Assembly: GCA_013002465.1 (NCBI GenBank)
Contig: JABDJO010000074.1
Coordinates: 1-64,000, forward strand
Origin: Silicimonas sp.
Lineage (GTDB): Bacteria; Pseudomonadota; Alphaproteobacteria; Rhodobacterales; Rhodobacteraceae
Reading direction: 5' to 3'
DNA: 64,000 nucleotides
Position numbers and translations under genes: made by a program. Of the stretch, positions 45,088 through 58,857 are shown piece by piece; the stretch's first letter is position 1; each line of letters starts with the position of its first letter. The notes under the pieces were generated by a model that was not told the DNA's origin, searched no databases, and saw only the letters and a program-made list of their open reading frames with translations.

Positions 45088-45903
45088 TCATGCGCCGGAA
45101 ATCCCTTGCTCTCGCCTCCGGGATGCAACCCTCACGACCAGTCGCTCGAATGCCGGGCGAAAAGCGTCGGGTGGTTCGGCATCAGTCACGAGATAATCTT
45201 TGTCGTTCAACGGTGGTTGCCTGAGCGAAGGTCGTTTTTCTTGTGACTCGAATTTGGTCGCATCCACCGCCATGATGGAACGTGCAGCGCTGTTCATCAT
45301 GGCAGTGGCCATATCCACTTCGCATTGCTCGTAGACAAGAAAGCCTTTGGTGGCATGGATCATCGAAGCGGACAGAACACAAAAGTCGACCTCGGCCCGT
45401 TCGACGACCTGAAACGCCGTTCGGTCGAACGAAGCTCCGTCGTGGTCGCGCAATTGGGTGCCGGCCATCGAGACGTTGTTGCCTGGGATCATGGCCAGTG
45501 TGCTGGCCACATAGGCGGAATTGGTCACCACGGTCAGATCCCGACGCTTCTGCAAAGCCTGGGCAATGAACGCAGAGGTGGATCCGGTATCAATCGCAAC
45601 ACTGTCGCCATCCTGGATTATGCTGGCCACCTCGTTCGCAATGGCCATTTTTGCGCCGCGATGAAGCGTCATGCGTGACATGAAAGGCGGATCCAGCGCT
45701 GACTTGGTTGACACGAGCGCCCCGTGAACCTTGTTCAGCGCACCGCGTTCAGCCAAAGGGCGCGTGACACGGCGGATGGTCTGGTCGGAAACGCCAAGAA
45801 TCTGAGATAACTCCTGCACGGACACCGTCCCCATCATATCGACGGTCCGCAGGATTTCTTCGGTATATTTGGAATCTGTGGTTGGCGACTTGAGGTTATT
45901 CAC
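45088..45903 (-). CDS. DeoR/GlpR-family transcriptional regulator
   Basis: The 271-residue product has an N-terminal winged helix-turn-helix (EEILRTVDMMGTVSVQELSQILGVSDQTIRR, about residues 15-45) and a DeoR C-terminal sugar-phosphate sensor domain with DSVAIDTGSTSAFIAQAL. Members usually respond to a phosphorylated substrate, which fits a locus containing two small-molecule kinases and a phosphatase. The start is GTG at 45903. It follows the phosphatase gene by 54 bases on the same strand and is the probable regulator of the divergent amine operon. Confidence 0.9.
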   Translation of the reverse strand: MNNLKSPTTDSKYTEEILRTVDMMGTVSVQELSQILGVSDQTIRRVTRPLAERGALNKVHGALVSTKSALDPPFMSRMTLHRGAKMAIANEVASIIQDGDSVAIDTGSTSAFIAQALQKRRDLTVVTNSAYVASTLAMIPGNNVSMAGTQLRDHDGASFDRTAFQVVERAEVDFCVLSASMIHATKGFLVYEQCEVDMATAMMNSAARSIMAVDATKFESQEKRPSLRQPPLNDKDYLVTDAEPPDAFRPAFERLVVRVASRRREQGISGA

Positions 45904-45957: not shown

Positions 45958-46728
45958 TCATGGGTGATTGACCCGTTCAACCAAGGACGCCAAAAGTTCC
46001 GAAGTGGCGGCGGTTAGTGTTCTGCCATCAGATTGCATCGTCAAAGGCCGGCCTTGCCAATCTGTCATTAGACCTCCCGCAGCTTCGACGACGGCGGATA
46101 CCGGAAGAAAGTCATAGGGCTTGAGGTCATAATCCACGACGGCATCCGCATGTCCGCTTGCCACTAAGGCGTGAGGATAGCAATCCGCAGACATACGTCG
46201 GACAGCGCCGGTGTTAATCAGCCGTGCGAATACTGCGGGCTCGTGCATCGCAATCTTGTCGGCTTCATTCAAAAACAGCCGCGCATTGGAGAGCGTATCG
46301 CAATCGCTCACCTGGATGGGTTTGCCATTGAGTGTCGCGCCCAGCCCACGCGCTCCGGAATAGAGTTCTTCGAGGGCGGGCATGTTGATAATGCCCAGTG
46401 CAGGCGCCCCGGCTTCGGCGTACCCCAACAACACTCCGAACAGCGGCAGACCCGTGATGAATGATCGGGTGCCATCAATCGGGTCGACGATCCACAGATC
46501 GGCGGCGTCGCCGCTTTGGCCATATTCCTCACCAAAGATCGTCTCGCCCGGGAAATGCTGACTTAGCGCCTCGCGTATTGCGCGTTCGGTGGCCTGATCG
46601 GCGATCGTAACAGGGCTTTCATCGGATTTTGCAATAATGTCCAGCGGTTTGCGGAAATGGGCAAGGGCGACATCCGAAGCCTCAAGGGCGATGCTTCGGG
46701 CCAATGTCAGGCGATGTGGTAGGTCCAT
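45958..46728 (-). CDS. Inositol monophosphatase-family phosphatase (HisN/IMPase-like)
   Basis: The 256-residue Mg-dependent, Li-sensitive-type phosphatase has the family motifs GEEYG (metal-binding Glu), WIVDPIDGTRSFITGLPLFG, and a C-terminal LKPYDFLPVSAVVEAAGGLMTDWQG. The PYDF in the last motif resembles histidinol-phosphatase members more than the WD of true IMPases. It lies divergent from the ABC/amine operon and upstream of the DeoR gene. The substrate may be histidinol phosphate, or a phosphorylated intermediate made by the choline-kinase-like enzymes next door; the context favours the latter. Confidence 0.85.
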   Translation of the reverse strand: MDLPHRLTLARSIALEASDVALAHFRKPLDIIAKSDESPVTIADQATERAIREALSQHFPGETIFGEEYGQSGDAADLWIVDPIDGTRSFITGLPLFGVLLGYAEAGAPALGIINMPALEELYSGARGLGATLNGKPIQVSDCDTLSNARLFLNEADKIAMHEPAVFARLINTGAVRRMSADCYPHALVASGHADAVVDYDLKPYDFLPVSAVVEAAGGLMTDWQGRPLTMQSDGRTLTAATSELLASLVERVNHP

Positions 46729-46829
46729 GGCGAGACATCTCTTATTTGCGTCACAGCGCCAATTTGCCTTGGCAGCCGGTGCGAGGCAATGAAAATCCAC
46801 AAAAACCAACACAGTATGTAGTTTTTTGT

Positions 46830-46843
46830 TGATTTTAAAATCA
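46830..46843. promoter_or_regulatory. Perfect palindrome in the phosphatase/ProX divergent promoter
   Basis: TGATTTTAAAATCA is a perfect 14-base palindrome in the 201-base divergent region, within an AT-rich patch (about 46795-46860) unlike its surroundings. It is a candidate operator for the adjacent DeoR-family regulator and would sit close to promoters of both transcripts. No second copy was seen in the window. Confidence 0.5.
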
Positions 46844-46929: not shown

Positions 46930-47862
46930 ATGAAATGCCTGCATATTGTTAGTGTTGCGATGCTTGCCGCGGCGCCTGTACTTGCTGCGGATTCCAGTGA
47001 TCCGATCAAACTGACGTTGCATGATTGGTCTGGTCAGTTGATCACCACGACCCTGATGGGAGAAGTTCTGAAAGAGGCCGGAAACAACGTTGAATATGTC
47101 CAGGCCGACTACATTGCACAGTTCGCGGGGTTGAAGACCGGCGATCTGCATCTGGCGATGGAAATCTGGGAAACCACTGGGCGTGAAGCTTTGGACGAAG
47201 CCGTTGGCACAGGCAATGTGGTCAACTTTGGCGAAACCGGCATGAACGCGATCGAGGAATGGTGGTATCCGGCCTATATGGAAGAGCGCTGCCCGGGCTT
47301 GCCTGATTGGAAGGCTTTGAACGATTGCGCCTCTGAATTTGCAACCGCCGAAACCGCACCTATGGGGCGTTATCTGGGTGGGCCGGTGACCTGGGGTGGA
47401 TTTGACGACGAACGGGTTGAAGCATTGGCCATGGACTTTGAAGTTGTGCATGCCGGAACCGACGCCGCGCTTTTTGCCGAACTTGAAGCCGCCTATCAGC
47501 GCCAAGACCCCATCGTGCTTTGGGTCTATGCTCCGCACTGGGCGCCCGCGAAGTACGATGGCAAGTTTGTCGAGTTTCCCCCGTATTCGGCTGAATGCTA
47601 TAGCGACCCTTCGGTCGGCATGAATCCGAACGCCGCTTATGACTGCGGCAAGCCGACGGGGCCGATCTGGAAAGCCGGTTGGGCGGGTCTGGCCGACAAG
47701 TGGCCAAGTGCCGCAAAAACCATCGAGAACTTCACGATATCGAACGAAGATATGGGTGCGATGGTCGCGGATGTCGACTTGAACGGCAAGTCGGTGGACG
47801 AAGTTGTCGCAGCCTGGATGGATGCAAACCAGGACTCCTGGAAATCCTGGATCGCCCAATAG
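46930..47862 (+). CDS. ABC transporter substrate-binding protein, ProX/OpuAC (quaternary amine) type
   Basis: The 310-residue periplasmic protein has a signal peptide (MKCLHIVSVAMLAAAPVLAA). The OpuAC fold opens with KLTLHDWSGQLITTTLMGEVL. LAMEIWETTGREAL, NAIEEWWYPAYMEERCPGLPDWKAL and FPPYSAEC carry the aromatic residues that box a methylated ammonium group in this family. The ligand should be betaine-like, but the exact compound is unknown. GGGGAG precedes the ATG at 46930. It is the first gene of the operon that runs to 57653. Confidence 0.9.
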   Translation: MKCLHIVSVAMLAAAPVLAADSSDPIKLTLHDWSGQLITTTLMGEVLKEAGNNVEYVQADYIAQFAGLKTGDLHLAMEIWETTGREALDEAVGTGNVVNFGETGMNAIEEWWYPAYMEERCPGLPDWKALNDCASEFATAETAPMGRYLGGPVTWGGFDDERVEALAMDFEVVHAGTDAALFAELEAAYQRQDPIVLWVYAPHWAPAKYDGKFVEFPPYSAECYSDPSVGMNPNAAYDCGKPTGPIWKAGWAGLADKWPSAAKTIENFTISNEDMGAMVADVDLNGKSVDEVVAAWMDANQDSWKSWIAQ

Positions 47863-47976
47863 TATGCATCGTGGGGCGCGCTTCTCTGCGCCCCGCGCTT
47901 GATCCATACTTGTCCCTGATGCGCTTGCCCCGGCCCCCACAACTGGGCGGCCGGCGACGCTGCGCCCGAGGTTTCA

Positions 47977-48990
47977 ATGAGCAACCCTGTCATCCTTGAT
48001 TGCCGGCACGTCTGGAAACTCTACGGTCCGGGTGCCGAGGCACTGCTAACCGGTCATCGCGCCCCGGATGCGGCCGATTTGAAGGCTGCCGGGGTGATCG
48101 GCGCGGTCCGAGATGTGAACGTCCAAATCCACAAGGGCGAGATCTTCGTGATCATGGGCCTTTCGGGGTCGGGCAAGTCGACACTGGTTCGATGCCTGTC
48201 CCGCCTTGTCGAACCAACGGCAGGCGAAATCGAATTTGACGGTCAGGACCTCTTGCGGGCGACCGATGCCGAGTTGATCGAGATTCGGCGCAAGAAGATG
48301 GGCATGGTGTTTCAGCAATTCGCCCTTATGCCGCACCTGACCGTCTTGGAGAACGCCGCTTTTCCGCTTGAAATACAGGGCGTTGATCGAAAATCCCGCG
48401 AGGCCCGCGCGCACGAAGTGATCGAACTTGTCGGCCTGAAGGGGCGCGAAGGCTATTACCCCCGCGAATTGTCAGGTGGCCAGCAACAACGGGTCGGCAT
48501 TGCCAGAAGCCTTGCCGTGGAACCCGACCTTTGGTTTCTGGACGAACCCTTCTCGGCACTTGACCCGTTGATCCGGCGCGAAATGCAGGATGAATTCATG
48601 CGGCTTCAGAACATGCTGAAGAAGACCATCGTTTTCATCACCCACGACTTTGACGAGGCGATCAGGCTGGCTGACCGCATTGCGGTCATGAAAGACGGAA
48701 CGATTGAACAGATCGCAACGCCGGAAGAACTGGTCCTCAATCCCTCGACAGAATACGTCGCCGAATTCACCCGCCATGTCGCCCGGGCCAAAGTCATCAG
48801 GGCGGCCAGTCGAATGGAGCCCGCCACCAGCGATGTTTTCGCTGGTGAAGTCCCCCATGATGCGACGATTGAAGACATCGCCGACGTGGTTGAAGCCGCC
48901 AACGCTCCGTTGAAGGTGATGAAGGACGGTCAGGTTGTGGGGCAGATCGCCGCCAGTGCCGTCATCGACGTTCTGGTCGGTCGCAATTGA
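47977..48990 (+). CDS. ABC transporter ATPase, ProV/OpuAA-type
   Basis: The 337-residue protein has Walker A GLSGSGKST (about residues 62-70), a Q-loop in MGMVFQQFALMPH, signature LSGGQQQRVGIARSLA and Walker B LWFLDEPFSALD. The N-terminal 50 residues (CRHVWKLYG, then HRAPDAADLKAAG) and a short C-terminal tail in place of full CBS domains match ProV-like ATPases. Its stop overlaps the permease ATG (TGATG). Confidence 0.93.
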   Translation: MSNPVILDCRHVWKLYGPGAEALLTGHRAPDAADLKAAGVIGAVRDVNVQIHKGEIFVIMGLSGSGKSTLVRCLSRLVEPTAGEIEFDGQDLLRATDAELIEIRRKKMGMVFQQFALMPHLTVLENAAFPLEIQGVDRKSREARAHEVIELVGLKGREGYYPRELSGGQQQRVGIARSLAVEPDLWFLDEPFSALDPLIRREMQDEFMRLQNMLKKTIVFITHDFDEAIRLADRIAVMKDGTIEQIATPEELVLNPSTEYVAEFTRHVARAKVIRAASRMEPATSDVFAGEVPHDATIEDIADVVEAANAPLKVMKDGQVVGQIAASAVIDVLVGRN

Positions 48991-50981
48991 TGGTCAGGCT
49001 GGCAAGACACCTGACCAGTGGTCGCTTGTTCTGGGCCGGGCTTTTCGTGATCACCTGGGTGCTGTCGCAATATTCATTCCAGATCTACAAGGCGCTGGAC
49101 GCTCGCTGGATCATCCGCTTTCCAAAGCAATACCAACTGCAGCTTGATGGCTGGATATCCGCTTTTCTGGATTGGCTGGTCAACACCGCCAATTTTTGGT
49201 TGTTCTCTTTTCGCGATGTCACGCGCGGCATCGCCTATCTGATCGAAGTTCCCTATCAGTTTCTTCGCAACCTCTTGATCGAGGGGTTTCAGTCGGGTCT
49301 TGGCGATCAGGCTGTCCAACTCGCGCCATCGCTAAGCTGGATTGCCGTAATCGCCATTGCCGTGGTGATCGGGCACTATGCGCGCGACCGGGCATTGGCC
49401 GTTCTGGTTGGCGTTTGTTTTCTCTATCTGGCCGTTTTTGGCCAATGGGACAGCGCGATGATCACGCTGGCCTCGGTCCTGGTTGCTGTGCCCATTGGTG
49501 CGGTTGGCGGGTTGGCGCTTGGTATCCTGGCATACAAGGTTGATTGGGTTGAAAAAACGCTGCGCCCGATCCTTGACCTGATGCAAACCGTTCCGGTTTT
49601 TGCCTATCTTGTTCCGATCCTGATCCTGTTCGGTTTTGGCCCCGTCGCGGCTCTCGTGGCGACAGTGATCTATGCGATGCCGCCTATGGTGCGCGTGACG
49701 ATTGTTGCCTTGCGCAATGTCCCCGAGGAATTGCTTGAAGCCGGTCGGATGAGCGGTTGCACACCGCGCCAGATGACCTGGAAAGTCCTTGTGCCTGCCG
49801 CGACACCGACACTGATGGTGGGCGTTAACCAAGTCATAATGCTGACGCTGAACATGGTGATTATCGCGTCGATGATCGGGGCTGGCGGTCTTGGGTTCGA
49901 CGTGTTGGCGAGTCTGCGCAAACTGGATATCGGCGGCGGGATCGAAGCGGGGCTTGCCATCGTGGTCATGGCGATAGCTTTGGATAGGGCGTCACAGGCC
50001 TTTGCAGAACGGCGGGTGCGTTCGCATAGGACTGGCGGCCTGATCGCAAGGCATCCCTGGCTAGCAACGGCAATCATTGTGTCGCTTGCCACACTAGCCC
50101 TTGGGCAAGTTCTGCCTGCCATCCAAACCTATCCCGACGCGCTAAAAATCACGACAGGCCAATTCTGGTCCTCGGCCATGGAATGGATCAACGTCAATTT
50201 CTTCGACTCATTCGAGGCGATCAAGACCGTCGCACTGCAGTACCTTTTGCTGCCCGTCAAAAAGTTCTTCGCAGGTATTCCCTGGCTGTGGGGTATCATT
50301 GCGACCGGATTGATCGCCTTGCGCGTTGCGGGTTGGCGGCTTGGATTGCTGGCCGCGCTCATGATGGCGTTCATTGCCGCCTCGGGCCTGTGGCCCAAAG
50401 CGATGGTGACAATCTATCTTTGTGGAGTATCAGTTTTCATCGCCGTGCTGATTGGCATTCCATTGGGCATATGGGCCGCCGAACGACCCAAGGCTGGACG
50501 CGTGATCCTTGGGCTGATGGACACGCTTCAGACCTTGCCGTCATTTGTGTATCTGATCCCAGTTGTCATGCTGTTCCGCGTTGGCGATTTCAGCGCAATG
50601 GTGGCCGTCATTCTATATGCTCTGGCCCCCGCCGTGCGCTATGCCGCCCACGGTGTCCGCGAGGTGCCAGCACAACTGGTCGAGGCCGGGCGAATGGCAG
50701 GGTGTACCCCCCGACAATTGATGTGGCGGGTGAAGCTGCCACTTGCAACGCCACAGCTTTTGCTGGGCCTGAACCAGACGATCATGCTGGCACTATCAAT
50801 GCTGGTCATCACCGCATTGGTCGGCACCCGCGACCTCGGACAAGAAGTCTATATCGCGCTGACCAAGGCGAACGCCGGGCAGGGGATCGTGGCCGGTCTG
50901 TCGGTTGCCTTCATTGCCATCGTCGCAGATCGGATCGTCAATGCCCTGTCCGAAAGCCAAAGACAAAGGTTGGGATTATGA
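48990..50981 (+). CDS. ProW-type permease with two fused transmembrane domains
   Basis: The 663-residue inner-membrane protein contains two complete BPD_transp_1 domains in tandem. Each has its own EAA coupling loop: LLEAGRMSGCTPRQMTWK near residue 248 and LVEAGRMAGCTPRQLMWR near residue 563. Most ProW/OpuAB proteins carry one domain and dimerise, so this chain alone may form the whole channel. The ATG at 48990 overlaps the ATPase stop, and its TGA overlaps the next start (ATGA). Confidence 0.92.
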   Translation: MVRLARHLTSGRLFWAGLFVITWVLSQYSFQIYKALDARWIIRFPKQYQLQLDGWISAFLDWLVNTANFWLFSFRDVTRGIAYLIEVPYQFLRNLLIEGFQSGLGDQAVQLAPSLSWIAVIAIAVVIGHYARDRALAVLVGVCFLYLAVFGQWDSAMITLASVLVAVPIGAVGGLALGILAYKVDWVEKTLRPILDLMQTVPVFAYLVPILILFGFGPVAALVATVIYAMPPMVRVTIVALRNVPEELLEAGRMSGCTPRQMTWKVLVPAATPTLMVGVNQVIMLTLNMVIIASMIGAGGLGFDVLASLRKLDIGGGIEAGLAIVVMAIALDRASQAFAERRVRSHRTGGLIARHPWLATAIIVSLATLALGQVLPAIQTYPDALKITTGQFWSSAMEWINVNFFDSFEAIKTVALQYLLLPVKKFFAGIPWLWGIIATGLIALRVAGWRLGLLAALMMAFIAASGLWPKAMVTIYLCGVSVFIAVLIGIPLGIWAAERPKAGRVILGLMDTLQTLPSFVYLIPVVMLFRVGDFSAMVAVILYALAPAVRYAAHGVREVPAQLVEAGRMAGCTPRQLMWRVKLPLATPQLLLGLNQTIMLALSMLVITALVGTRDLGQEVYIALTKANAGQGIVAGLSVAFIAIVADRIVNALSESQRQRLGL

Positions 50982-51853
50982 ACGAAGCCGCCATCTTCAA
51001 GGCCGCGCGCCTTTCCTGTTTTGCCAACCCGTCCGAGATCGAGCCCCTGGGCGGTGGGATAACCAACGTCAACCTGCGCGTCACCGACGGCGACCGGCGC
51101 TTTGTTGTGCGATTGGGGGCGGACATTCCCGAGCATGGTGTAATGCGCTGGAACGAACTTGCCATTAGCAAAGCCGCCGAGGCTGCGGGCGTATCGCCGG
51201 GCGTCTATCACCATGAAGAAGGCGTTCTGGTCCTTGAGTTCCTTCTGGCCGAGACCTTTACCGAAGAAGCGGTGCGTGATCCCGAAAACCTGCCGCGCAT
51301 CATTGACCTGATGAAGGCGGCGCACCTTGGGCTTGCCAACCACCTCACGTCGCCGGTGCTCGGCTTCTGGCCATTTCAGGTCAATCGCACCTATATGGCT
51401 CGCCTCCAGGCCGATGGTTCAAAGCATCAAAGCGCGCTTCCCAAGTTGCGATCAGACCTGGAAGCATTGGAATCGGCGACCGGCCCGGTGACATTGGTAA
51501 TTGGGCACAACGACATGCTGGCTGCCAATGTCCTTGATGACGGATCCAGGCTTTGGCTGATCGACTGGGAATACGGGGGGTTTAACACGCCACTCTTTGA
51601 CCTTGCCGGGCTTGCTGGCAATAATGGGCTTTCCGAAGATCAGGAACGCGCGGCCCTTGAGCAGTATTTCGAAGCCGCGCCTGAACTGCACTGGCGTCCC
51701 TATCAGGCGATGAAGTGCGTGTCGCTGATGCGCGAAACGCTCTGGTCAATGACGTCAGAGATCCATTCAGAACTCGATTTCGATTATTCCGCCTATACGG
51801 CTGAAAACATGGATCGATTCAACGTCGCGCTCCAGGACTTCCGTAACTCGTGA
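50978..51853 (+). CDS. Choline/ethanolamine kinase-like (APH-fold) phosphotransferase 1
   Basis: The 291-residue protein has the APH/choline kinase fold: the nucleotide-loop region PLGGGITNVNLRVTDG, Brenner's motif VIGHNDMLAANVLDDG (catalytic Asp and Asn) and the metal-binding LWLIDWEYGGFNTPLFDLA. It would phosphorylate a hydroxyl on a small imported molecule. Overlap with the permease gene (ATGA) ties it to transport. It precedes two amine-demethylating flavoproteins, so an amino alcohol is the likely substrate type. Confidence 0.88.
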   Translation: MNEAAIFKAARLSCFANPSEIEPLGGGITNVNLRVTDGDRRFVVRLGADIPEHGVMRWNELAISKAAEAAGVSPGVYHHEEGVLVLEFLLAETFTEEAVRDPENLPRIIDLMKAAHLGLANHLTSPVLGFWPFQVNRTYMARLQADGSKHQSALPKLRSDLEALESATGPVTLVIGHNDMLAANVLDDGSRLWLIDWEYGGFNTPLFDLAGLAGNNGLSEDQERAALEQYFEAAPELHWRPYQAMKCVSLMRETLWSMTSEIHSELDFDYSAYTAENMDRFNVALQDFRNS

Positions 51854-51862
51854 GGATTGATC

Positions 51863-54295
51863 ATGACGCAACCTGCCTCGTCAAAAACCATCATTGTGGG
51901 TGGCGGTATCATCGGGTGTTCAACGGCCTACCATCTGGCTGCGATGGGTCACGAGGTTTTGCTTCTGGAAAAGGCGGCTTTGACCTCGGGGTCAACCTGG
52001 CACGCGGCTGGTTTGGTGGGGCAACTGCGCTCGAACGCCAATATCACGCAGCTCTTGGGATACTCCATTGATCTCTATGATCGTCTTGAAGCGGAAACCG
52101 GACTGGCGACCGGTTGGAAAATGAACGGTGGCCTGCGTCTGGCGTGCAACGAAGAACGCTGGACAGAAGTGAAACGACAGGCCACGACGGCCCATTCGTT
52201 TGGCCTAGACATGCAGCTTTTGAACCCCAAAGAAGCACAAGACCTTTGGCCGCTTATGGAGATTGGCGATGTCGTCGGCGCGGCCTTTCTGCCGACTGAC
52301 GGCCAGGCCAGCCCGTCGGATATCACGCAGGCTCTTGCAAAGGGCGCGCGCGCGAAAGGTGCAAAAATTCTGGAAAACACGCCAGTTACGCAGATCCTGA
52401 CAGACAAGGGTCAAATATCTGGCGTGCGGACCCCTCACGGCGACATTCAATGCGAAAAGCTGGTCCTGTGCTGCGGCCAATGGACCAGAGAACTGGCCAA
52501 GACCATCGGTGTGACTGTCCCGCTGGTGTCGGTCGAACATCAGTACATGATCACCGAACCTTTTGATGTTCCATCCAACCTTCCGACGCTACGCGACCCT
52601 GACCGGCTGACCTACTATAAGGAAGAGGTCGGCGGTCTGGTCATGGGCGGGTATGAACCAAATGGCATTCCCTGGGCTACGGATGGCATTCCCGACCCTT
52701 TCGACTTTCAACTGCTGGATTCTAACTACGACCATTTCGGGCAACTGATCGAACTGTCTCTGCCGCGCGTGCCCAAGCTGGAAACTGTGGGCGTGAAAGA
52801 GTTGATCAATGGCCCCGAAAGCTTCACCCCGGATGGCAATTTCATCCTTGGTGAAGCCCCCGAGATGTCGAACGTTTTCATCGGTGCCGGTTTCAATGCG
52901 TTTGGAATCGCATCTGGCGGGGGGGCTGGCATGGCCTTGGCCGAGTGGGTCGCCAACGGGCAGCCGCCCTATGATCTGTGGGCGGTCGACATTCGTCGCT
53001 TTGGTCGACCGCATACCGATACAGAATGGGTCAAAGCCCGCACGCTTGAGGCCTATGGCAAACACTACACCATGGCCTGGCCGTCGGAAGAGCACGACAG
53101 CGGTCGCCCCTGCCGCCGCTCACCGCTCTATGACACACTTGCGGCGTCGGGTGCGGTGTTTGGTGAGAAACTTGGCTGGGAACGGCCGAACTGGTTTGCC
53201 GAGCCTGGAGAAGAGCCGCGCGACATTTATACCTTCGAGCGCCCGAATTGGCATGGCCCAGTTGGGCGGGAACACAAGGCGGCGCGCGAGGCCGCGGTTC
53301 TCTTTGACCAAACCTCGTTTGCGAAGTTCATTTTAAAGGGCCCCGATGCCGAAGCGGCCCTGCAATGGATCGCGGCCAATCGCGTCGATCGGCCGGTTGG
53401 GTCAATCATCTATACACAGATGCTGAACAACGCCGGTGGGATCGAGTGCGATCTGACCTGTGTGCGCACCGGATATGACAGCTATTACATCGTCACCGGG
53501 ACCGGATTTGCCACCCATGATTTCAACTGGATAGCGCGCAGCATTCCCGAAGGCATGAACGCGCAACTTGTGGATGTGACCTCATCGAATGCCGTTCTAT
53601 CGCTTTTTGGGCCAAAATCGCGGGACATTCTGGCCAGTGTCACCAAAGACGATGTCAGCAATTTGGCACAGCCCTTCGCCACGGCGAAGGAGATTGGCAT
53701 CGCAGGCTGTCCGGTGCAGGCTTTGCGGATCACTTATGTCGGCGAATTGGGCTGGGAGTTGCACTTGCCGACGGAATACGCCCAGACCGTCTATGATGCC
53801 TTGCACGACGCCGGTGCCGATCATGGCCTGCGCAATGCCGGGTACCGCGCAATCGAAACGCTGCGCCTTGAGAAAGGCTATCGCGCATGGTCGGCCGATA
53901 TCGGCCCAGACCACACGCCGGACGAGGCCGGTCTTGGTTGGGCGGTCAAACTGCGGTCGAACATTCCGTTTCTGGGGCGCGAGGCGGTTGCCGCTCAGCG
54001 CGAAGCGGGGGTGAAGAAGTTACTCGCGACATTCACCACAGACGGCGACACCATCCTGTCGGGTCGGGAAACCATTTATCGCAACGGCACGCGCTGTGGT
54101 TGGCTGAGTTCAGGCGGATACGGGCACACTGTGCGAAAATCCATTGGCATGGGATACGTGCGGTCCGACCGGGTCATCGACCGTGACTACGTTCTAAGTG
54201 GCACTTATGAACTTGAAGTTGCGACCGAACGCGTGCCTGCCGATGTAACGCTCGCGCCACTTTATGATCCAAGGATGGAACGCGTAAAGGTCTGA
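51863..54295 (+). CDS. Dimethylglycine/sarcosine dehydrogenase-like flavoprotein 1 (DAO + GcvT)
   Basis: The 810-residue protein has a DAO domain with the dinucleotide motif IIVGGGIIGCSTAYHLA (residues 10-26). TSGSTWHAAGL follows, with His47 at the place where DMGDH and sarcosine dehydrogenase bind FAD covalently. An FAO_M linker comes next, then a GcvT aminomethyltransferase domain from about residue 430 (MLNNAGGIECDLTCVR; GYRAIETLRLEKGYRAWSADI) and a GcvT C-terminal barrel. Such enzymes oxidatively N-demethylate a secondary or tertiary amine and pass the carbon to tetrahydrofolate. The ATG at 51863 has GAGG upstream, and the gene lies nine bases after the kinase. Confidence 0.93.
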   Translation: MTQPASSKTIIVGGGIIGCSTAYHLAAMGHEVLLLEKAALTSGSTWHAAGLVGQLRSNANITQLLGYSIDLYDRLEAETGLATGWKMNGGLRLACNEERWTEVKRQATTAHSFGLDMQLLNPKEAQDLWPLMEIGDVVGAAFLPTDGQASPSDITQALAKGARAKGAKILENTPVTQILTDKGQISGVRTPHGDIQCEKLVLCCGQWTRELAKTIGVTVPLVSVEHQYMITEPFDVPSNLPTLRDPDRLTYYKEEVGGLVMGGYEPNGIPWATDGIPDPFDFQLLDSNYDHFGQLIELSLPRVPKLETVGVKELINGPESFTPDGNFILGEAPEMSNVFIGAGFNAFGIASGGGAGMALAEWVANGQPPYDLWAVDIRRFGRPHTDTEWVKARTLEAYGKHYTMAWPSEEHDSGRPCRRSPLYDTLAASGAVFGEKLGWERPNWFAEPGEEPRDIYTFERPNWHGPVGREHKAAREAAVLFDQTSFAKFILKGPDAEAALQWIAANRVDRPVGSIIYTQMLNNAGGIECDLTCVRTGYDSYYIVTGTGFATHDFNWIARSIPEGMNAQLVDVTSSNAVLSLFGPKSRDILASVTKDDVSNLAQPFATAKEIGIAGCPVQALRITYVGELGWELHLPTEYAQTVYDALHDAGADHGLRNAGYRAIETLRLEKGYRAWSADIGPDHTPDEAGLGWAVKLRSNIPFLGREAVAAQREAGVKKLLATFTTDGDTILSGRETIYRNGTRCGWLSSGGYGHTVRKSIGMGYVRSDRVIDRDYVLSGTYELEVATERVPADVTLAPLYDPRMERVKV

Positions 54296-54299
54296 CATC

Positions 54300-56711
54300 A
54301 TGTCTGAAAACTCGGCAAAGCATCTGATCATTGGCGGCGGAATCATTGGTTGTTCGATCGCCTACCATCTTACTCGGATGGGCGAAGAAAATGTGGTGCT
54401 TCTTGAACGCGCGGGCCTGACCGAGGGTGCGACTTGGCACGCGGCTGGATTGGTCGGGCAGTTGCGTTCATCGCGCAATACCACGCGTATGTTGCAAAAG
54501 TCCGTCGCCATGTACGACCGGCTTCAGAACGAAGAAGGTCTGAATTTCGATTGGAAGAAAACCGGCTCGCTGCGATTGGCCGCCACGCGTGACCGGATGC
54601 TGGAAGCCAAACGGCTGGCGACAATGGCGCGCAGCTTTGATCTTGAGATGCAGATTATTTCGCCATCCGAAGCCAAGGATTTGTTCCCGCTCATTGATGC
54701 TGCGGGGCTTGAAGGAGCCGCTTTCATTCCGTCAGACGGCTATGTGGATCCAGCGTCTCTCTGTCAGGCCATCGCAGGGGCGGCCCGCAGGCAAGGTGCC
54801 GACATCCGCCTGAACGTAGAAGTCACGGATTTCACTGTGGCGAAGGGCAGGATCACATCGGTCCATACCACCGAAGGCCAATGGGATGCTGACACGGTCA
54901 TCCTTGCAACCGGCATGTGGAGCCGCGAACTGGGCGCGAAACTGGGCATCCGTGTGCCCGCCTGCGCCGTGGAACACCAATACATCGTAACCGAAAGCAC
55001 CGGCGCAGAGATTGGCCACTATCCGACCCTTCGTGACCCCGAACGACTGGTCTACTACAAGCCCGATGTCGCCGGGCGGTTGGTCATCGGCGGGTACGAA
55101 GATGACACCGTGGCATTCGGCAATCCTTGGATCCCTGAGAGATTCGTGCGCCAACTTCTGCCCGAGAACATGGATCGGTTCCTGCCTCTGGCCGAACTTG
55201 CAAGCCAGGTCACACCGATCGTCAACGAGGTTGGTATTCGGCAAGTCATCAACGGCCCCATTCCCTATTCCGCCGATGGTGACTTTGTCATGGGATGGCA
55301 GCCCGGGTTCGACAACCTGATGATGGCCACGGGTTTTCTTTATGGAATCGCCGCCGGTGGTGGGGCCGGGGAAATGATCGCCGAATGGATTGTCGCCGGG
55401 TCACCGTCGCTGGACCTTTGGCCATTGGATGTGCGCCGTTTCGGTCCGCATCACGGCACACGCGCCTTCATGTTCCCCCGGGCGGTCGAGCATTATGCCC
55501 ATCACTACAAGATGCGGTACCCTGGACAGGAACACGAAACCGCGCGCCAGTTGCGCCTGTCTCCGCTATACCGACGGCTGAAAGACGCCGGGGCGGTATA
55601 CGGTTCCAAGAACGGATGGGAACGCTCGCTTTGGTTCGCGCCCAAGGATGTTGAACCGGTCGATCAGCTGGATTTCCTTGAGCCCGGATGGAAACGTTTT
55701 GCAGCCGAGGAACACAAAGCCGTCCGAGAGCGCGTTGCGCTGATCGACCAGACCAGCTTCGCCAAATTCGAGATACTAGGCGAAGGCACGCTGGGTGCCC
55801 TTCAATGGCTATGCGTATCGAACATGGACAAGCCCGAGGGCGCGATCATCTACACCCAGATGTGTAATGCTGCTGGCGGGATCGAGGCGGATGTGACCTT
55901 CATCCGGTTGGGCCGCGATCATTTCCGCATGATCACGGGCTCCGGGTTTGGCGTGCATGATAGTGACTGGCTCGGGCGGAACCTGCCCAAGGGCGTGCAC
56001 GTCGTCGACGTGACAAGCGGTTGTGCGGTCCTGAACCTTGTGGGCCCCCTGTCCCGGAAAGTGCTTGAGACTGCCTCGGAAAGTGACGTTTCGAACCAGG
56101 CAATCCCGTTTTCAACGGCAAGCGATATCGTGATCGGAGCTGCGCCCGTTCTGGCCGCACGGATCGGCTATGTGGGCGAACTGGGCTATGAGTTGCACAT
56201 TCCGACCGAATTCGCCGCCCATGTCTATGACGCCCTTTGGACTGCGGGTCAGAAAAACGGGATCGCAAATGTCGGCTATCGCGCGGTCGAAAGCCTGCGC
56301 ATGGAAAAAGGCTATGTCTACTGGTCGGGGGATATATCGCCGGACTACACGCCGATCGAGGCCGGGCTTGGGTTCAGGGTGCATCTGAAATCAAAAGGTG
56401 ATTTTCTTGGACGCAATGTGCTTGAAGATCAAAAGAACAACGGAACCAGCCGACGGCTTTGCACTTTCGTCAGCGACGCCCATTTACCGCTGACCGGTGG
56501 CGAGACGATCCTGAGGGACGATCAGGTCGTGTCATTGGCCACATCCGCCGGCTTCGGCTACTCGGTCGGAAAAACCATCCTGCGCGGTTACCTTGACCAA
56601 ACACACTGGGGCACAACAGAATTCATGCTTGAGGTCTTCGGCGAGCGCCACGGGATCACCCAAGTCGATGGACCGCTCTACGACCCCGAGAACCGCGCGC
56701 TAAAGGCATAA
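54300..56711 (+). CDS. Dimethylglycine/sarcosine dehydrogenase-like flavoprotein 2 (DAO + GcvT)
   Basis: The 803-residue paralogue of the preceding protein has the same architecture: LIIGGGIIGCSIAYHL, then TEGATWHAAGL with His47 as predicted covalent FAD ligand, a linker, and GcvT domains (MCNAAGGIEADVTFIR; GYRAVESLRMEKGYVYWSGDI). The two share obvious sequence along their length but differ clearly enough to be old duplicates rather than a recent copy. It starts four bases after the first. Two adjacent demethylases would suit removal of two methyl groups in sequence. Confidence 0.93.
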   Translation: MSENSAKHLIIGGGIIGCSIAYHLTRMGEENVVLLERAGLTEGATWHAAGLVGQLRSSRNTTRMLQKSVAMYDRLQNEEGLNFDWKKTGSLRLAATRDRMLEAKRLATMARSFDLEMQIISPSEAKDLFPLIDAAGLEGAAFIPSDGYVDPASLCQAIAGAARRQGADIRLNVEVTDFTVAKGRITSVHTTEGQWDADTVILATGMWSRELGAKLGIRVPACAVEHQYIVTESTGAEIGHYPTLRDPERLVYYKPDVAGRLVIGGYEDDTVAFGNPWIPERFVRQLLPENMDRFLPLAELASQVTPIVNEVGIRQVINGPIPYSADGDFVMGWQPGFDNLMMATGFLYGIAAGGGAGEMIAEWIVAGSPSLDLWPLDVRRFGPHHGTRAFMFPRAVEHYAHHYKMRYPGQEHETARQLRLSPLYRRLKDAGAVYGSKNGWERSLWFAPKDVEPVDQLDFLEPGWKRFAAEEHKAVRERVALIDQTSFAKFEILGEGTLGALQWLCVSNMDKPEGAIIYTQMCNAAGGIEADVTFIRLGRDHFRMITGSGFGVHDSDWLGRNLPKGVHVVDVTSGCAVLNLVGPLSRKVLETASESDVSNQAIPFSTASDIVIGAAPVLAARIGYVGELGYELHIPTEFAAHVYDALWTAGQKNGIANVGYRAVESLRMEKGYVYWSGDISPDYTPIEAGLGFRVHLKSKGDFLGRNVLEDQKNNGTSRRLCTFVSDAHLPLTGGETILRDDQVVSLATSAGFGYSVGKTILRGYLDQTHWGTTEFMLEVFGERHGITQVDGPLYDPENRALKA

Positions 56712-56726
56712 GACAGGAGAGGGACG

Positions 56727-57653
56727 ATGTCAGACCATACCGCAGAAGTCATGGAGGCCTTGCGAAAGGCACCTGAGTTCAAAGCTGTTGCCACGGTCGA
56801 TAAGATCACGCGATTGGGTGGGCTGACCAATCTGGTGCATCGTGTCGACATGGACAATCGTTCCGTCATCGTGCGTATCCCGGGCGAAGGAACCGAGGCC
56901 TATATCGACCGCGCGGTAGAAATCCATAACGCCAAAGCCGCGGCGAGGGCGGGCGTTTCGCCCGAGGTGATCTATGCCGAAGCCGAAACCGGCCTGATGA
57001 TTTCGGAAGCCGTTCCCAATATCGAAACCATGACGCCCGATCTATTTTCGACGCGCAAGGGTTCGCCAGCGCGGGCAGGGCGCGCTTTGGCAAAGCTGCA
57101 CAAATCGCGGGAAGCATTCGAGTTCCGGTTCGAGCTTTTTGCGATGATCGACGACTATCTCAAGATCCTGGCAACAAAGGACGTGGCCTTGCCCGAGGGA
57201 TATCACGACGTCGTTGCCGCTGCAGCGCCGGTCAAAGACGTCTTGGCTGCCGCGAATGCTCCGCTTGCGCCGTGCCACTGCGATCCTTTGTGCGAGAATT
57301 TCCTCGATGACGGCACGCTCATGTGGATCGTTGACTGGGAATACTCGGGCATGAACGATCCGCTTTGGGATCTGGGTGATCTATCGGTCGAGGCCGGCAT
57401 GGACAACGCTCAGGACAATGAGATGATGACGGCCTACTTCGACCGCGAACCAACTGCTGCCGAATCCGGTCGCATGGTGATCTATAAGGCGATGTGCGAT
57501 CTGCTGTGGACCCTATGGGGATTGATCCAGTTCGCAGATGACAACCCAGCCGAGGATTTCTGGGCTTACGCCACCGGGAGGTTCGAACGCTGCAAGACGC
57601 TGATGGAAGATCCGGCATTCCAACAGCATCTGGACGCCGTGCGCCGGGGCTGA
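56727..57653 (+). CDS. Choline/ethanolamine kinase-like (APH-fold) phosphotransferase 2
   Basis: The 308-residue protein has a LicA/choline-kinase-like fold: ITRLGGLTNLVHRVDMDNRSVIVRIPGEGTEAYIDR for nucleotide binding, catalytic LAPCHCDPLCENFLDDG and metal-binding MWIVDWEYSGMNDPLWDLGDLSVEAG. It differs markedly from the first kinase of the operon (more like eukaryotic-type choline kinase in its DPLWDLGD segment), so the two may act on different intermediates or form a pair. It is the last gene of the operon and converges with an Fe-S protein 13 bases away. Confidence 0.9.
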   Translation: MSDHTAEVMEALRKAPEFKAVATVDKITRLGGLTNLVHRVDMDNRSVIVRIPGEGTEAYIDRAVEIHNAKAAARAGVSPEVIYAEAETGLMISEAVPNIETMTPDLFSTRKGSPARAGRALAKLHKSREAFEFRFELFAMIDDYLKILATKDVALPEGYHDVVAAAAPVKDVLAAANAPLAPCHCDPLCENFLDDGTLMWIVDWEYSGMNDPLWDLGDLSVEAGMDNAQDNEMMTAYFDREPTAAESGRMVIYKAMCDLLWTLWGLIQFADDNPAEDFWAYATGRFERCKTLMEDPAFQQHLDAVRRG

Positions 57654-57666
57654 ACGCGAGAGTTCT

Positions 57667-58857
57667 TCAAGGATCAGAGCGGCCGGTATCTTGCTGCCAC
57701 CATTCCGCAGGTTTGCGCCGCCGACCATGCGACCTGGTTAAGCGCAGCGCCAGTTTGCGCAATGGGCCAAGCGCCAGCTTCAACCACAAGCGGTTACCCA
57801 ACTTTTCATAGTCGCGATTGAACGGACAAACCCGCATGCAGATCGCGCAATCGGTCGAGAGTTTGGCCCAGAACGAGAAGCATTTCTCGGCATCCGAAGT
57901 CCACTTGCGCACCCCCTTGATGGCCGAAATATTTGCCGTTTCCCTAGAAGGTGGCCCATAGGGCAACGCCTTTACCGGGCAGGCATCAGCACATTTGGTG
58001 CAAATATCGCAAAAGGCGCGCACCCCCATGGGCTTGGGGTTGTCATGGGCTAGCGGCAGGTTGGTGAAAATCTTGGAGAACCGAAGGCGCGGACCAAACT
58101 CTGGCGTTATGACCATTTGGTTGCGGGCGTATTCGCCCAGACCGGCCTTTACTGCATATGGGATGACAAGAGCCGTGTCGTTCATCGAAGCAACAGCTTC
58201 ATAGCCAAGTTTGCGGATATACGTGGCCAGTTGCATCACGATAGCTGCTTCGTGGCTGTATTCCCGCCCTGTGGCGGCACCGGCCAGGGCCGAGGGGTAG
58301 GTCGCGACAAGTTCCTTGTCCATTTCATGGCCCAGTACGATGACGGAGTGCAATCCGTCGGGCAGGTCGTGAGGGGCGTCCGACATATCACGGGTATCGA
58401 CCCGGGCAGTATAGATCCACCGTTCGTCCAGATCGGTGATGCCGCACAGATCCGCGCCGAAGAACTTGGCGATGCGCTTGATTTCAGATGACATTTTCCC
58501 TGCGTCTTCGATCTTGACCATCTGATCGGCAACGAGTGTGTCGGGTTCAATCGCGGCCTGAAACCCTTCGCGCCTTCCATCTGTAGCGCTTCGGTTAGAG
58601 ACGACATCCGAAATCAGCCAGGACGCATTGCGCAGCGCGAAATCCCGCTGCGAGAACCCATCCCCACGACGCGGCGCAGCCTCCATTCGGTACGAAGCAA
58701 AGAACTTGTCCGTCTCGTTGGACCTGACCTGATCATCCCAGAAGGCGCGTGTGAAAATGTCGTTGCGTTGTGCGAAGCGCTCGAATTCATCGGTAACGTC
58801 AATTCCCGCCGCCGCGTCGGTTTCTTTTCTGGGCGGGGTGTTCTTGGGCCAGGTCAT
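57667..58857 (-). CDS. Cytoplasmic reductive-dehalogenase-like corrinoid/Fe-S protein
   Basis: The 396-residue product has no Tat signal. The region TGREYSHEAAIVMQLATYIRKLGYEAVASMNDTALVIPYAVKAGLGEYARNQMVITPEFGPRLRF resembles the B12-binding core of RdhA enzymes. Two ferredoxin motifs follow: C283, C286, C289, C293-P and C326, C337, C340, C344-P. Tyr200, Asn226 and Arg259 have the same spacing as the active-site Tyr246, Asn272 and Arg305 that I recall for PceA. It might reduce a carbon-halogen bond or another substrate with cob(I)alamin. QueG is a relative but is shorter and has different motifs. It precedes an aldo/keto reductase on the other side of its promoter. Confidence 0.8.
   Translation of the reverse strand: MTWPKNTPPRKETDAAAGIDVTDEFERFAQRNDIFTRAFWDDQVRSNETDKFFASYRMEAAPRRGDGFSQRDFALRNASWLISDVVSNRSATDGRREGFQAAIEPDTLVADQMVKIEDAGKMSSEIKRIAKFFGADLCGITDLDERWIYTARVDTRDMSDAPHDLPDGLHSVIVLGHEMDKELVATYPSALAGAATGREYSHEAAIVMQLATYIRKLGYEAVASMNDTALVIPYAVKAGLGEYARNQMVITPEFGPRLRFSKIFTNLPLAHDNPKPMGVRAFCDICTKCADACPVKALPYGPPSRETANISAIKGVRKWTSDAEKCFSFWAKLSTDCAICMRVCPFNRDYEKLGNRLWLKLALGPLRKLALRLTRSHGRRRKPAEWWQQDTGRSDP

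Follow-up and report, generated by a model that had tools for sequence, protein, structure and literature searches.

The known bacterial route for choline proceeds by oxidation to betaine, and ethanolamine and aminopropanol are degraded by routes in which an amino-alcohol kinase acts ahead of a phospho-lyase. In the breakdown of N-methylated aminoethylphosphonate, a flavin adenine dinucleotide (FAD) enzyme acts on an amine that bears both an N-methyl group and a phosphorus anion; the substrate is a C-P compound and no kinase is known to take part. Here we describe a nine-gene cassette from Silicimonas sp. (contig JABDJO010000074.1), found in a 64-kb stretch of DNA that was analysed as a whole and is called the window below. 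It encodes a ProX-type importer, two choline/ethanolamine-kinase-like proteins (Kin1 and Kin2), two FAD-dependent demethylase-type proteins with folate domains (Fad1 and Fad2), a phosphatase, and a DeoR-type regulator. That the cassette is a genuine conserved unit, beyond chance association, is well supported. As the best explanation of the whole, in which our confidence falls just short of even, we propose that the genes are inducible and serve to take up and N-demethylate a small amino alcohol with N-methyl groups, of which N,N-dimethylethanolamine, N-methylethanolamine, or both are the likeliest candidates. As in the kinase and phospho-lyase routes, phosphorylation would precede breakdown; unlike them, the cassette would add demethylation, and it has no phospho-lyase.

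Methylated amines are described as making an important contribution to the dissolved organic nitrogen of the sea (PMC13390433). In Ruegeria pomeroyi, the route for glycine betaine uses dimethylglycine dehydrogenase (DMGDH) and sarcosine dehydrogenase (SarDH), and resembles the cassette in placing folate-linked flavoprotein demethylases in series; its substrates, however, are carboxylates, and the words kinase and ethanolamine do not appear in the main text of that report (PMC4744692). The TmoXVW system for uptake of trimethylamine N-oxide (TMAO) has a binding protein of the ProX type, with four of seven pocket positions kept in our protein, but other partner genes (PMC8918994; structure 4xz6). 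The dimethylsulfoniopropionate importer DmpXWV shares with ProX the OpuAC family and an aromatic cage, although published residues, compared without an alignment, give DmpX a Y-x-W where ProX has W-x-Y (PMC10030565). Choline and ethanolamine kinases (LicA, 3dxq, and the P. vivax ethanolamine kinase) have the family and fold of Kin1 and Kin2, which are instead linked to demethylases, and Kin1 is less like the microcompartment aminopropanol kinase 6ef6 (Z 20.4) than it is like the choline kinases. Among the openly licensed papers listed by full-text searches, none was seen to describe the cassette or a demethylase for phosphorylated methylethanolamines.

The features of the cassette in the window are as follows.

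45088..45903, minus strand: DeoR/GlpR-type regulator with a C-terminal sensor domain (PF08220 and PF00455)
45958..46728, minus strand: HisN-like phosphatase of the inositol-monophosphatase family (PF00459, 189 bits)
46793..46805, minus strand: putative DeoR operator half, one mismatch against the motif TTTTTGTTGATTT
46823..46835, plus strand: putative DeoR operator half, exact match to TTTTTGTTGATTT
46930..47862, plus strand: ProX/OpuAC-type substrate-binding protein, a TmoX relative (PF04069; best solved relative 4xz6, 277 bits)
47977..48990, plus strand: ATP-binding cassette (ABC) ATPase of the ProV type (TIGR01186 above cut-off)
48987..50981, plus strand: double permease with two BPD_transp_1 stretches (PF00528; TIGR03416 above cut-off)
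50978..51853, plus strand: Kin1, choline/ethanolamine-kinase-like (PF01633; AlphaFold model)
51857..54295, plus strand: Fad1, FAD-dependent demethylase-type protein with folate domain (PF01266, PF16350, PF01571, PF08669)
54300..56711, plus strand: Fad2, a further FAD-dependent protein of the demethylase type, likewise with a folate domain (PF01266, PF16350, PF01571, PF08669)
56727..57653, plus strand: Kin2, choline/ethanolamine-kinase-like (PF01633)

A sequence-only reading of this DNA had described seven tightly spaced genes on one strand with a phosphatase and a DeoR gene divergent from them, and both the coordinates and the Pfam and NCBIfam families agree with it. ProX starts at ATG 46930, preceded by a GGGGAG stretch, and is separated from the ATPase gene by 114 bases. 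The ATPase and permease genes overlap by 4 bases, as do the permease and Kin1 genes; Fad1 follows Kin1 after 3 bases with a TTG start (9 if it begins at ATG 51863), Fad2 follows Fad1 after 4, and Kin2 follows Fad2 after 15. For the phosphatase we prefer the start at ATG 46728, although its open reading frame (ORF) extends to GTG 46812. The ATPase scored 346 bits against the TIGR01186 cut-off of 326.6 (NCBIfam), and the permease showed two TIGR03416 stretches (438 bits, cut-off 363). The regulator carries both the HTH_DeoR and DeoRC domains of the DeoR/GlpR family (Pfam). The phosphatase belongs to the wider family PF00459; against the nearest NCBIfam model, the HisN histidinol-phosphatase TIGR02067, it reached 236.2 bits and fell below the equivalog cut-off of 275.15. 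The same reading had called two different choline-kinase-like proteins and two DMGDH/SarDH-like flavoproteins, and this also holds: Kin1 and Kin2 are 31% identical and both match PF01633, while Fad1 and Fad2 carry the same four Pfam domains.

We evaluated the conservation of the cassette mainly in 149 genomes of the family, counting Kin1 at an identity of at least 39% and Kin2 at 61% or more. Kin1 was found in 32 of these genomes and Kin2 in 22, all 22 of which also hold Kin1 (Fisher 5.7e-19, kinship not corrected). Among 337 genomes drawn from the class, 17 had Kin2 matches with an E-value no higher than 1e-25, and in 12 of the 17, the Silicimonas genome included, identity was at least 47%. 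Named genomes yielded 192 Kin1 relatives, and the best 80, which were kept, are by record title mostly from Rhodobacterales, with others from Roseibium/Labrenzia, Rhizobiaceae, Kiloniellaceae, and bins named Granulosicoccaceae or Cocleimonas; culturable strains of Roseovarius, Marivita, and Phaeobacter marinintestinus are among them. When fetched loci were searched with tblastn and four duplicates removed, Fad1 adjoined Kin1 in 108 of 114 loci (one of the six others ends at a contig edge) and the permease adjoined it in 82. The 72 loci with both ProX and Kin1, many of them truncated by a contig end or by the length that was fetched, contain DeoR in 68 cases, Kin2 in 51, the phosphatase in 48, and Fad2 in 45; the complete nine-gene set is present in 36 loci. 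The sequence-only reading had named as refuting an outcome in which the two kinases or the two flavoproteins occur mostly apart in related genomes, and this outcome was not observed.

Its treatment of the kinases and demethylases as one set is supported, with a refinement. They are conserved together, nearly always in company with DeoR and, in two thirds of these loci, with the phosphatase; the pairs are Kin1-Fad1 and Fad2-Kin2. Only 6 of 53 Fad2 genes lie behind Fad1 as in Silicimonas; the other 47 stand elsewhere, and often such a Fad2 has its own DeoR gene and precedes the phosphatase and importer genes. Because of this variable order, we distinguish two sub-modules corresponding to the two pairs, each of which occurs alone in some genomes.

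A predicted operator would tie the sub-modules to the regulator. The 13-base motif TTTTTGTTGATTT was built up from short words that recur in the regions before ProX and before split Fad2 genes, those that do not follow Fad1. Allowing at most one mismatch, it matches twice in the window, where 0.07 matches are expected, and both matches fall within the 201 bases that separate the phosphatase gene from ProX. Within two mismatches it was found upstream of 35 of 77 ProX genes (shuffled motif, 2), 35 of 47 split Fad2 genes (shuffled motif, 1), 3 of 32 Kin1 genes not preceded by a permease, and none of the 6 Fad2 genes that follow Fad1, against 13 of 2912 random windows from the same loci. Since the motif was derived from the ProX and split-Fad2 upstream regions, those two counts are biased in its favour, and a fairer test is whether it tracks the regulator. 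Upstream of split Fad2 it occurs in 28 of 29 loci whose DeoR is at least 50% like that of the cassette, in 7 of 17 where a distant DeoR is the only one, and not in the single locus without DeoR. The corresponding counts for ProX are 28 of 35, 6 of 37, and 1 of 5, and the motif precedes 25 of 33 ProX genes that have no distant DeoR beside them against 10 of 44 that do (p 7e-6, kinship not corrected). Where both upstream regions were available (44 loci), the motif occurs in both in 23 and in neither in 8. We therefore predict from these sequences a common DeoR-type operator before both sub-modules.

Both Fad1 and Fad2 carry the DAO, FAO_M, GCV_T, and GCV_T_C domains above cut-off in one chain, as expected of the DMGDH/SarDH type, and are 48% identical to one another. 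In Fad1, the His that links FAD and the residues corresponding to H225, Y259, and D552 of dimethylglycine oxidase are invariant in 98 sequences; in Fad2, the last three are present in 52 of 52 and the FAD-linking His in 50, with 2 gaps. We take these residues to serve in FAD linkage, in catalysis (H225, Y259), and in folate binding (D552). While domains and catalytic residues are observed, we infer the substrate. The genome holds eight other full-length homologues of Fad1. In a tree of 31 rows, Fad1 forms one group (99/97) and Fad2 another (100/100), and these groups join only one paralogue, L193 on contig C12 (97/94 with Fad1), a placement that long branches leave uncertain and that concerns a protein we presume to be sarcosine-dehydrogenase-like. 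On the same contig L193 adjoins another homologue, L197, and the two presumably resemble an ordinary betaine pair, so the ordinary betaine route is probably encoded elsewhere in the genome, outside the cassette. In an alignment of the 98 Fad1 and 52 Fad2 sequences with the 8 paralogues, we screened for candidate phosphate-contacting positions, at which Fad1 and Fad2 alike have a basic residue that few paralogues share. Two of these candidates, R58 (Fad1 numbering), shortly after the FAD-linking His, and H386, each also occur in one paralogue.

The kinases scored 68.7 and 66.3 bits against PF01633 (Choline_kinase; cut-off 29), and the catalytic Asp/Asn/Asp is invariant in 113 Kin1 and 70 Kin2 sequences, as in members of the kinase family. 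An AlphaFold model of Kin1, built with 29 orthologues (mean predicted local distance difference test score 95, predicted template modelling score 0.90), matched choline/ethanolamine kinases at ranks 1-33 (Z 28.6-23.2), led by 3dxq (28.6), LicA with choline (27.7), and the P. vivax ethanolamine kinase (27.6). Homoserine kinase (Z 23.0) was level with the last of these (23.2), followed by N-acetylhexosamine kinase (21.0), APH(2'') (20.6), and the aminopropanol kinase 6ef6 mentioned above. For Kin2, the match to 3dxq, a protein of Mesorhizobium loti that bears the name choline/ethanolamine kinase family protein, reached 399 bits, and that to the choline kinase LicA (4r77) reached 109. The best NCBIfam name for both proteins, the guanitoxin-type kinase GntI (NF041256), was rejected at 146 and 135 bits against a cut-off of 357.

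For the importer, we compared 75 ProX sequences at the seven pocket positions published for TmoX, W55, W102, F106, E131, W177, F220, and W222 (PMC8918994). Where TmoX has W, W, F, E, W, F, and W, the residues in ProX are W, W, G, E, W, W, and Y, so that the TmoX pocket is not found: three of seven positions differ across the 75 sequences, F106, F220, and W222 of TmoX being G or A, W, and Y in ProX. Within the ProX family the pocket hardly varies; W33, W80, W155, W198, and Y200 are invariant in all 75, E109 is present in 74 (X in one), and position 84 is G in 67 and A in 8. The genome also encodes a TmoX-like protein, 41% identical to ProX, that keeps all seven published residues and lies in a separate cluster (L212). 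Its neighbouring genes we take to be Tdm- and Tmm-like. With a separate protein bearing the TmoX pocket in the genome and a different pocket in ProX, we rejected TMAO uptake as the role of the cassette. The choline-binding protein ChoX was likewise rejected, since TIGR03414 gave 32.6 bits against a cut-off of 379. Judged by these residues, ProX is a protein whose aromatic box and glutamate are retained and whose cavity is remade, which speaks for a single ligand for the whole family, a methylated ammonium compound other than TMAO. The 75 sequences include loci with only Fad2-Kin2 (L180-L182) and loci with Kin2 and a methyltransferase (L075, L177).

The partners of Kin2 within 700 bases were counted in the 69 loci with Kin2 at 45% identity or higher, and each locus has one. 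Fad2 is the partner in 53, a METTL27-like methyltransferase in 12 (L059, L062, L064, L066, L069, L073, L074, L075, L077, L078, L147, and L172; in L077 the contig stops after 70 residues of it), a relative of the sarcosine/dimethylglycine and phosphoethanolamine N-methyltransferases in 2 (L176, L177), and an oxidase with only the DAO domain in 2 (L178, L179). In all 69 loci, then, Kin2 adjoins an enzyme that plausibly alters an N-methyl group; for the 12 METTL27-like loci we infer this role, as we know of no settled substrate of METTL27. Fad2 is lacking in 16 Kin2 loci, 12 of which have the METTL27-like gene in divergent orientation to Kin2, and this neighbourhood could offer a first hint at the substrates of METTL27-type enzymes. 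At L177, the importer, the phosphoethanolamine methyltransferase relative, Kin2, and a phosphatase of the haloacid dehalogenase (HAD) type form a single run that has no demethylase and may be a variant of the unit for making choline.

A sister operon bears indirectly on the substrate. Alongside DeoR, a HisN-like phosphatase, and twin kinases it has an ABC importer of the peptide type and an M20 amidohydrolase, although some loci showed only part of this set. We located it in five genomes of the family (G046, G051, G071, G124, and G134; L071, L072, and L159-L161), in two genomes of the class (G474, L184; G430, L186 and L189), and on Agrobacterium and Shinella plasmids (L169, L170). The M20 gene is present in 10 of 10 loci, and the kinases, where measured, are 23-31% like Kin2. 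Genes for ethanolamine ammonia-lyase (EutB-EutC) accompany the operon in two of the ten loci (L159, L169), and G046 has a 28-residue EutB match, below cut-off, that starts at a contig end. Cassette and sister operon share regulator, kinases, and phosphatase and differ in importer and processing enzyme. This composition suggests that the sister operon breaks down an ethanolamine amide or a similar conjugate. HisN proper acts on histidinol phosphate, which is also the phosphate of an amino alcohol. The resemblance to the sister operon with its EutBC genes is, by analogy, our main ground for naming ethanolamines as substrate.

From these elements we assemble the following pathway. The amine would be imported by ProX, the ATPase, and the double permease, as the pocket suggests, and Kin1 and Kin2 would phosphorylate its hydroxyl group. 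Oxidation by Fad1 and Fad2 would then take off N-methyl groups, whose carbon would go to tetrahydrofolate. DMGDH-type demethylases normally require an anionic group on the substrate, and the phosphate would probably be that anionic handle, as the carboxylate is in dimethylglycine and sarcosine. The HisN-like phosphatase would subsequently release the amino alcohol, while the DeoR repressor may sense the phosphorylated intermediate. We consider it probable that the cassette encodes a route in which kinases and demethylases together process an N-methylated amino alcohol. Whether phosphorylation precedes demethylation is an evenly balanced question, and methylated ethanolamines are a plausible substrate to which we give somewhat less than even weight. 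More speculatively, and with doubt prevailing, cassette and sister operon may both represent phosphate-tag catabolism of N-substituted ethanolamines, in which twin kinases tag the substrate, an exchangeable enzyme (folate-linked demethylase, DAO oxidase, methyltransferase, or the M20 amidohydrolase of the sister operon) acts on the nitrogen, a HisN-like phosphatase removes the tag, and one DeoR family reads it. A conserved kinase-linked demethylation cassette would add a route, with Kin1 in about one fifth of the sampled family genomes (32/149); proteins presently annotated just as phosphotransferase or FAD-dependent oxidoreductase would gain a function, and phosphate would be shown as the anionic handle in an N-demethylase.

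Several observations weigh against this proposal or parts of it. Kin2 is missing from 10 of the 32 Kin1 genomes, so the two pairs are not always required, and the phosphatase, absent from 24 of the 72 ProX-Kin1 loci (some of them cut short), is not a fixed part of the cassette. The methyltransferase-like genes beside Kin2, 14 of 69 loci in all, may point to synthesis, not breakdown. In three genomes of one genus, at loci lacking Kin1 and Fad1, a diaminopimelate-decarboxylase-like gene lies directly behind Kin2 (L180:8204-9496, L181:8301-9593, and L182), so an amino acid substrate fits better there, and a DDAH/arginine-deiminase-like gene (L118:7781-8674) stands between a ProX-type importer and Kin1 in another locus. 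An aromatic box of the ProX kind usually binds quaternary amines, and to our knowledge flavoproteins of the Fad1/Fad2 type do not demethylate these. The fate of the product is a further difficulty. EutB scores above its cut-off in 1 of the 32 genomes with Kin1 and in 10 of the 117 without, which is no enrichment, and the Silicimonas genome has none; ethanolamine ammonia-lyase is therefore not the usual sequel, and we set it aside in that role, given no association over the 149 genomes and its presence in only two of ten loci even in the sister operon. A fusion protein recognized by the model PRK06148, which we take to be a kinase-phospholyase, exceeds the cut-off in 8 of 32 Kin1 genomes against 10 of 117 others (p 0.017), or 11 of 32 against 15 of 117 when weaker matches are included (p 0.007), neither value being corrected for kinship. 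Only weakly associated with Kin1 genomes and not found in that of Silicimonas, it was rejected as the sequel here.

Some of these observations carry the alternatives. With the order of steps exchanged, Fad1 and Fad2 would demethylate the free amino alcohol, and the kinases would phosphorylate the products for head-group salvage or as a signal to DeoR. Methyltransferase-like genes beside Kin2 fit such head-group metabolism, and the run of genes at L177 and the loci without a phosphatase also favour it; however, the phosphatase, where present, would reverse salvage, and a free amino alcohol lacks the anionic group that the demethylase family normally needs, so that we think this order unlikely. 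A kinase-demethylase route could instead serve a different methylamine with a hydroxyl group, for instance a hydroxyproline betaine, a compound resembling carnitine, or a methylated hydroxy amino acid, as the decarboxylase-like gene of L180-L182, the DDAH-like hydrolase of L118, an alpha/beta hydrolase in L107, and the quaternary-amine character of the aromatic box would suggest. These odd genes, though, occur in few loci, the sister operon has EutBC in two of ten, and ORF clustering gave no recurring quaternary-amine enzyme, the neighbours having been sampled with Pfam and no search aimed at Rieske/BHMT-type genes; we regard such a substrate as rather unlikely. Ordinary choline and glycine betaine metabolism, in which the kinases would make phosphocholine and the flavoproteins would be plain dimethylglycine and sarcosine dehydrogenases, agrees with the protein families and with an importer of the betaine/choline type. 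It is very unlikely in view of the eight further full-length Fad1 homologues, including the presumably betaine-like pair on C12, the separate clades formed by Fad1 and Fad2, and the low score of the choline-binding model TIGR03414, no search having been aimed at bet genes near the cassette.

To look for additional members of the cassette favoured here, the kinase-plus-demethylase route, 1639 ORFs from 120 loci were clustered. No further widely shared gene family emerged; the next clusters cover at most 19 loci and were judged by position to be antisense ORFs. One 4-locus cluster later proved to be METTL27-like, and opposite-strand genes may likewise have escaped this clustering. Genes beside Kin1 in importer-free loci were set aside as lineage neighbours, namely those of the OCD and PALP types (L111), CrtC/lipocalin (L096), and an AMP-binding enzyme (L119). 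At L111 and its relatives L112, L114, and L115, Kin1-Fad1 lies near ornithine-cyclodeaminase-like and PALP-family genes (families tested in L111), a pairing presumably familiar from ectoine use. A 1155-residue protein (L045:10715-14182) overlaps Kin1 by 4 bases in a genome where Fad1 is not beside Kin1. In the window itself, the convergent neighbour of Kin2 (57667-58857, minus strand) encodes a reductive-dehalogenase-like iron-sulfur protein (TIGR02486, 171 bits against a cut-off of 160), which we excluded from the cassette set.

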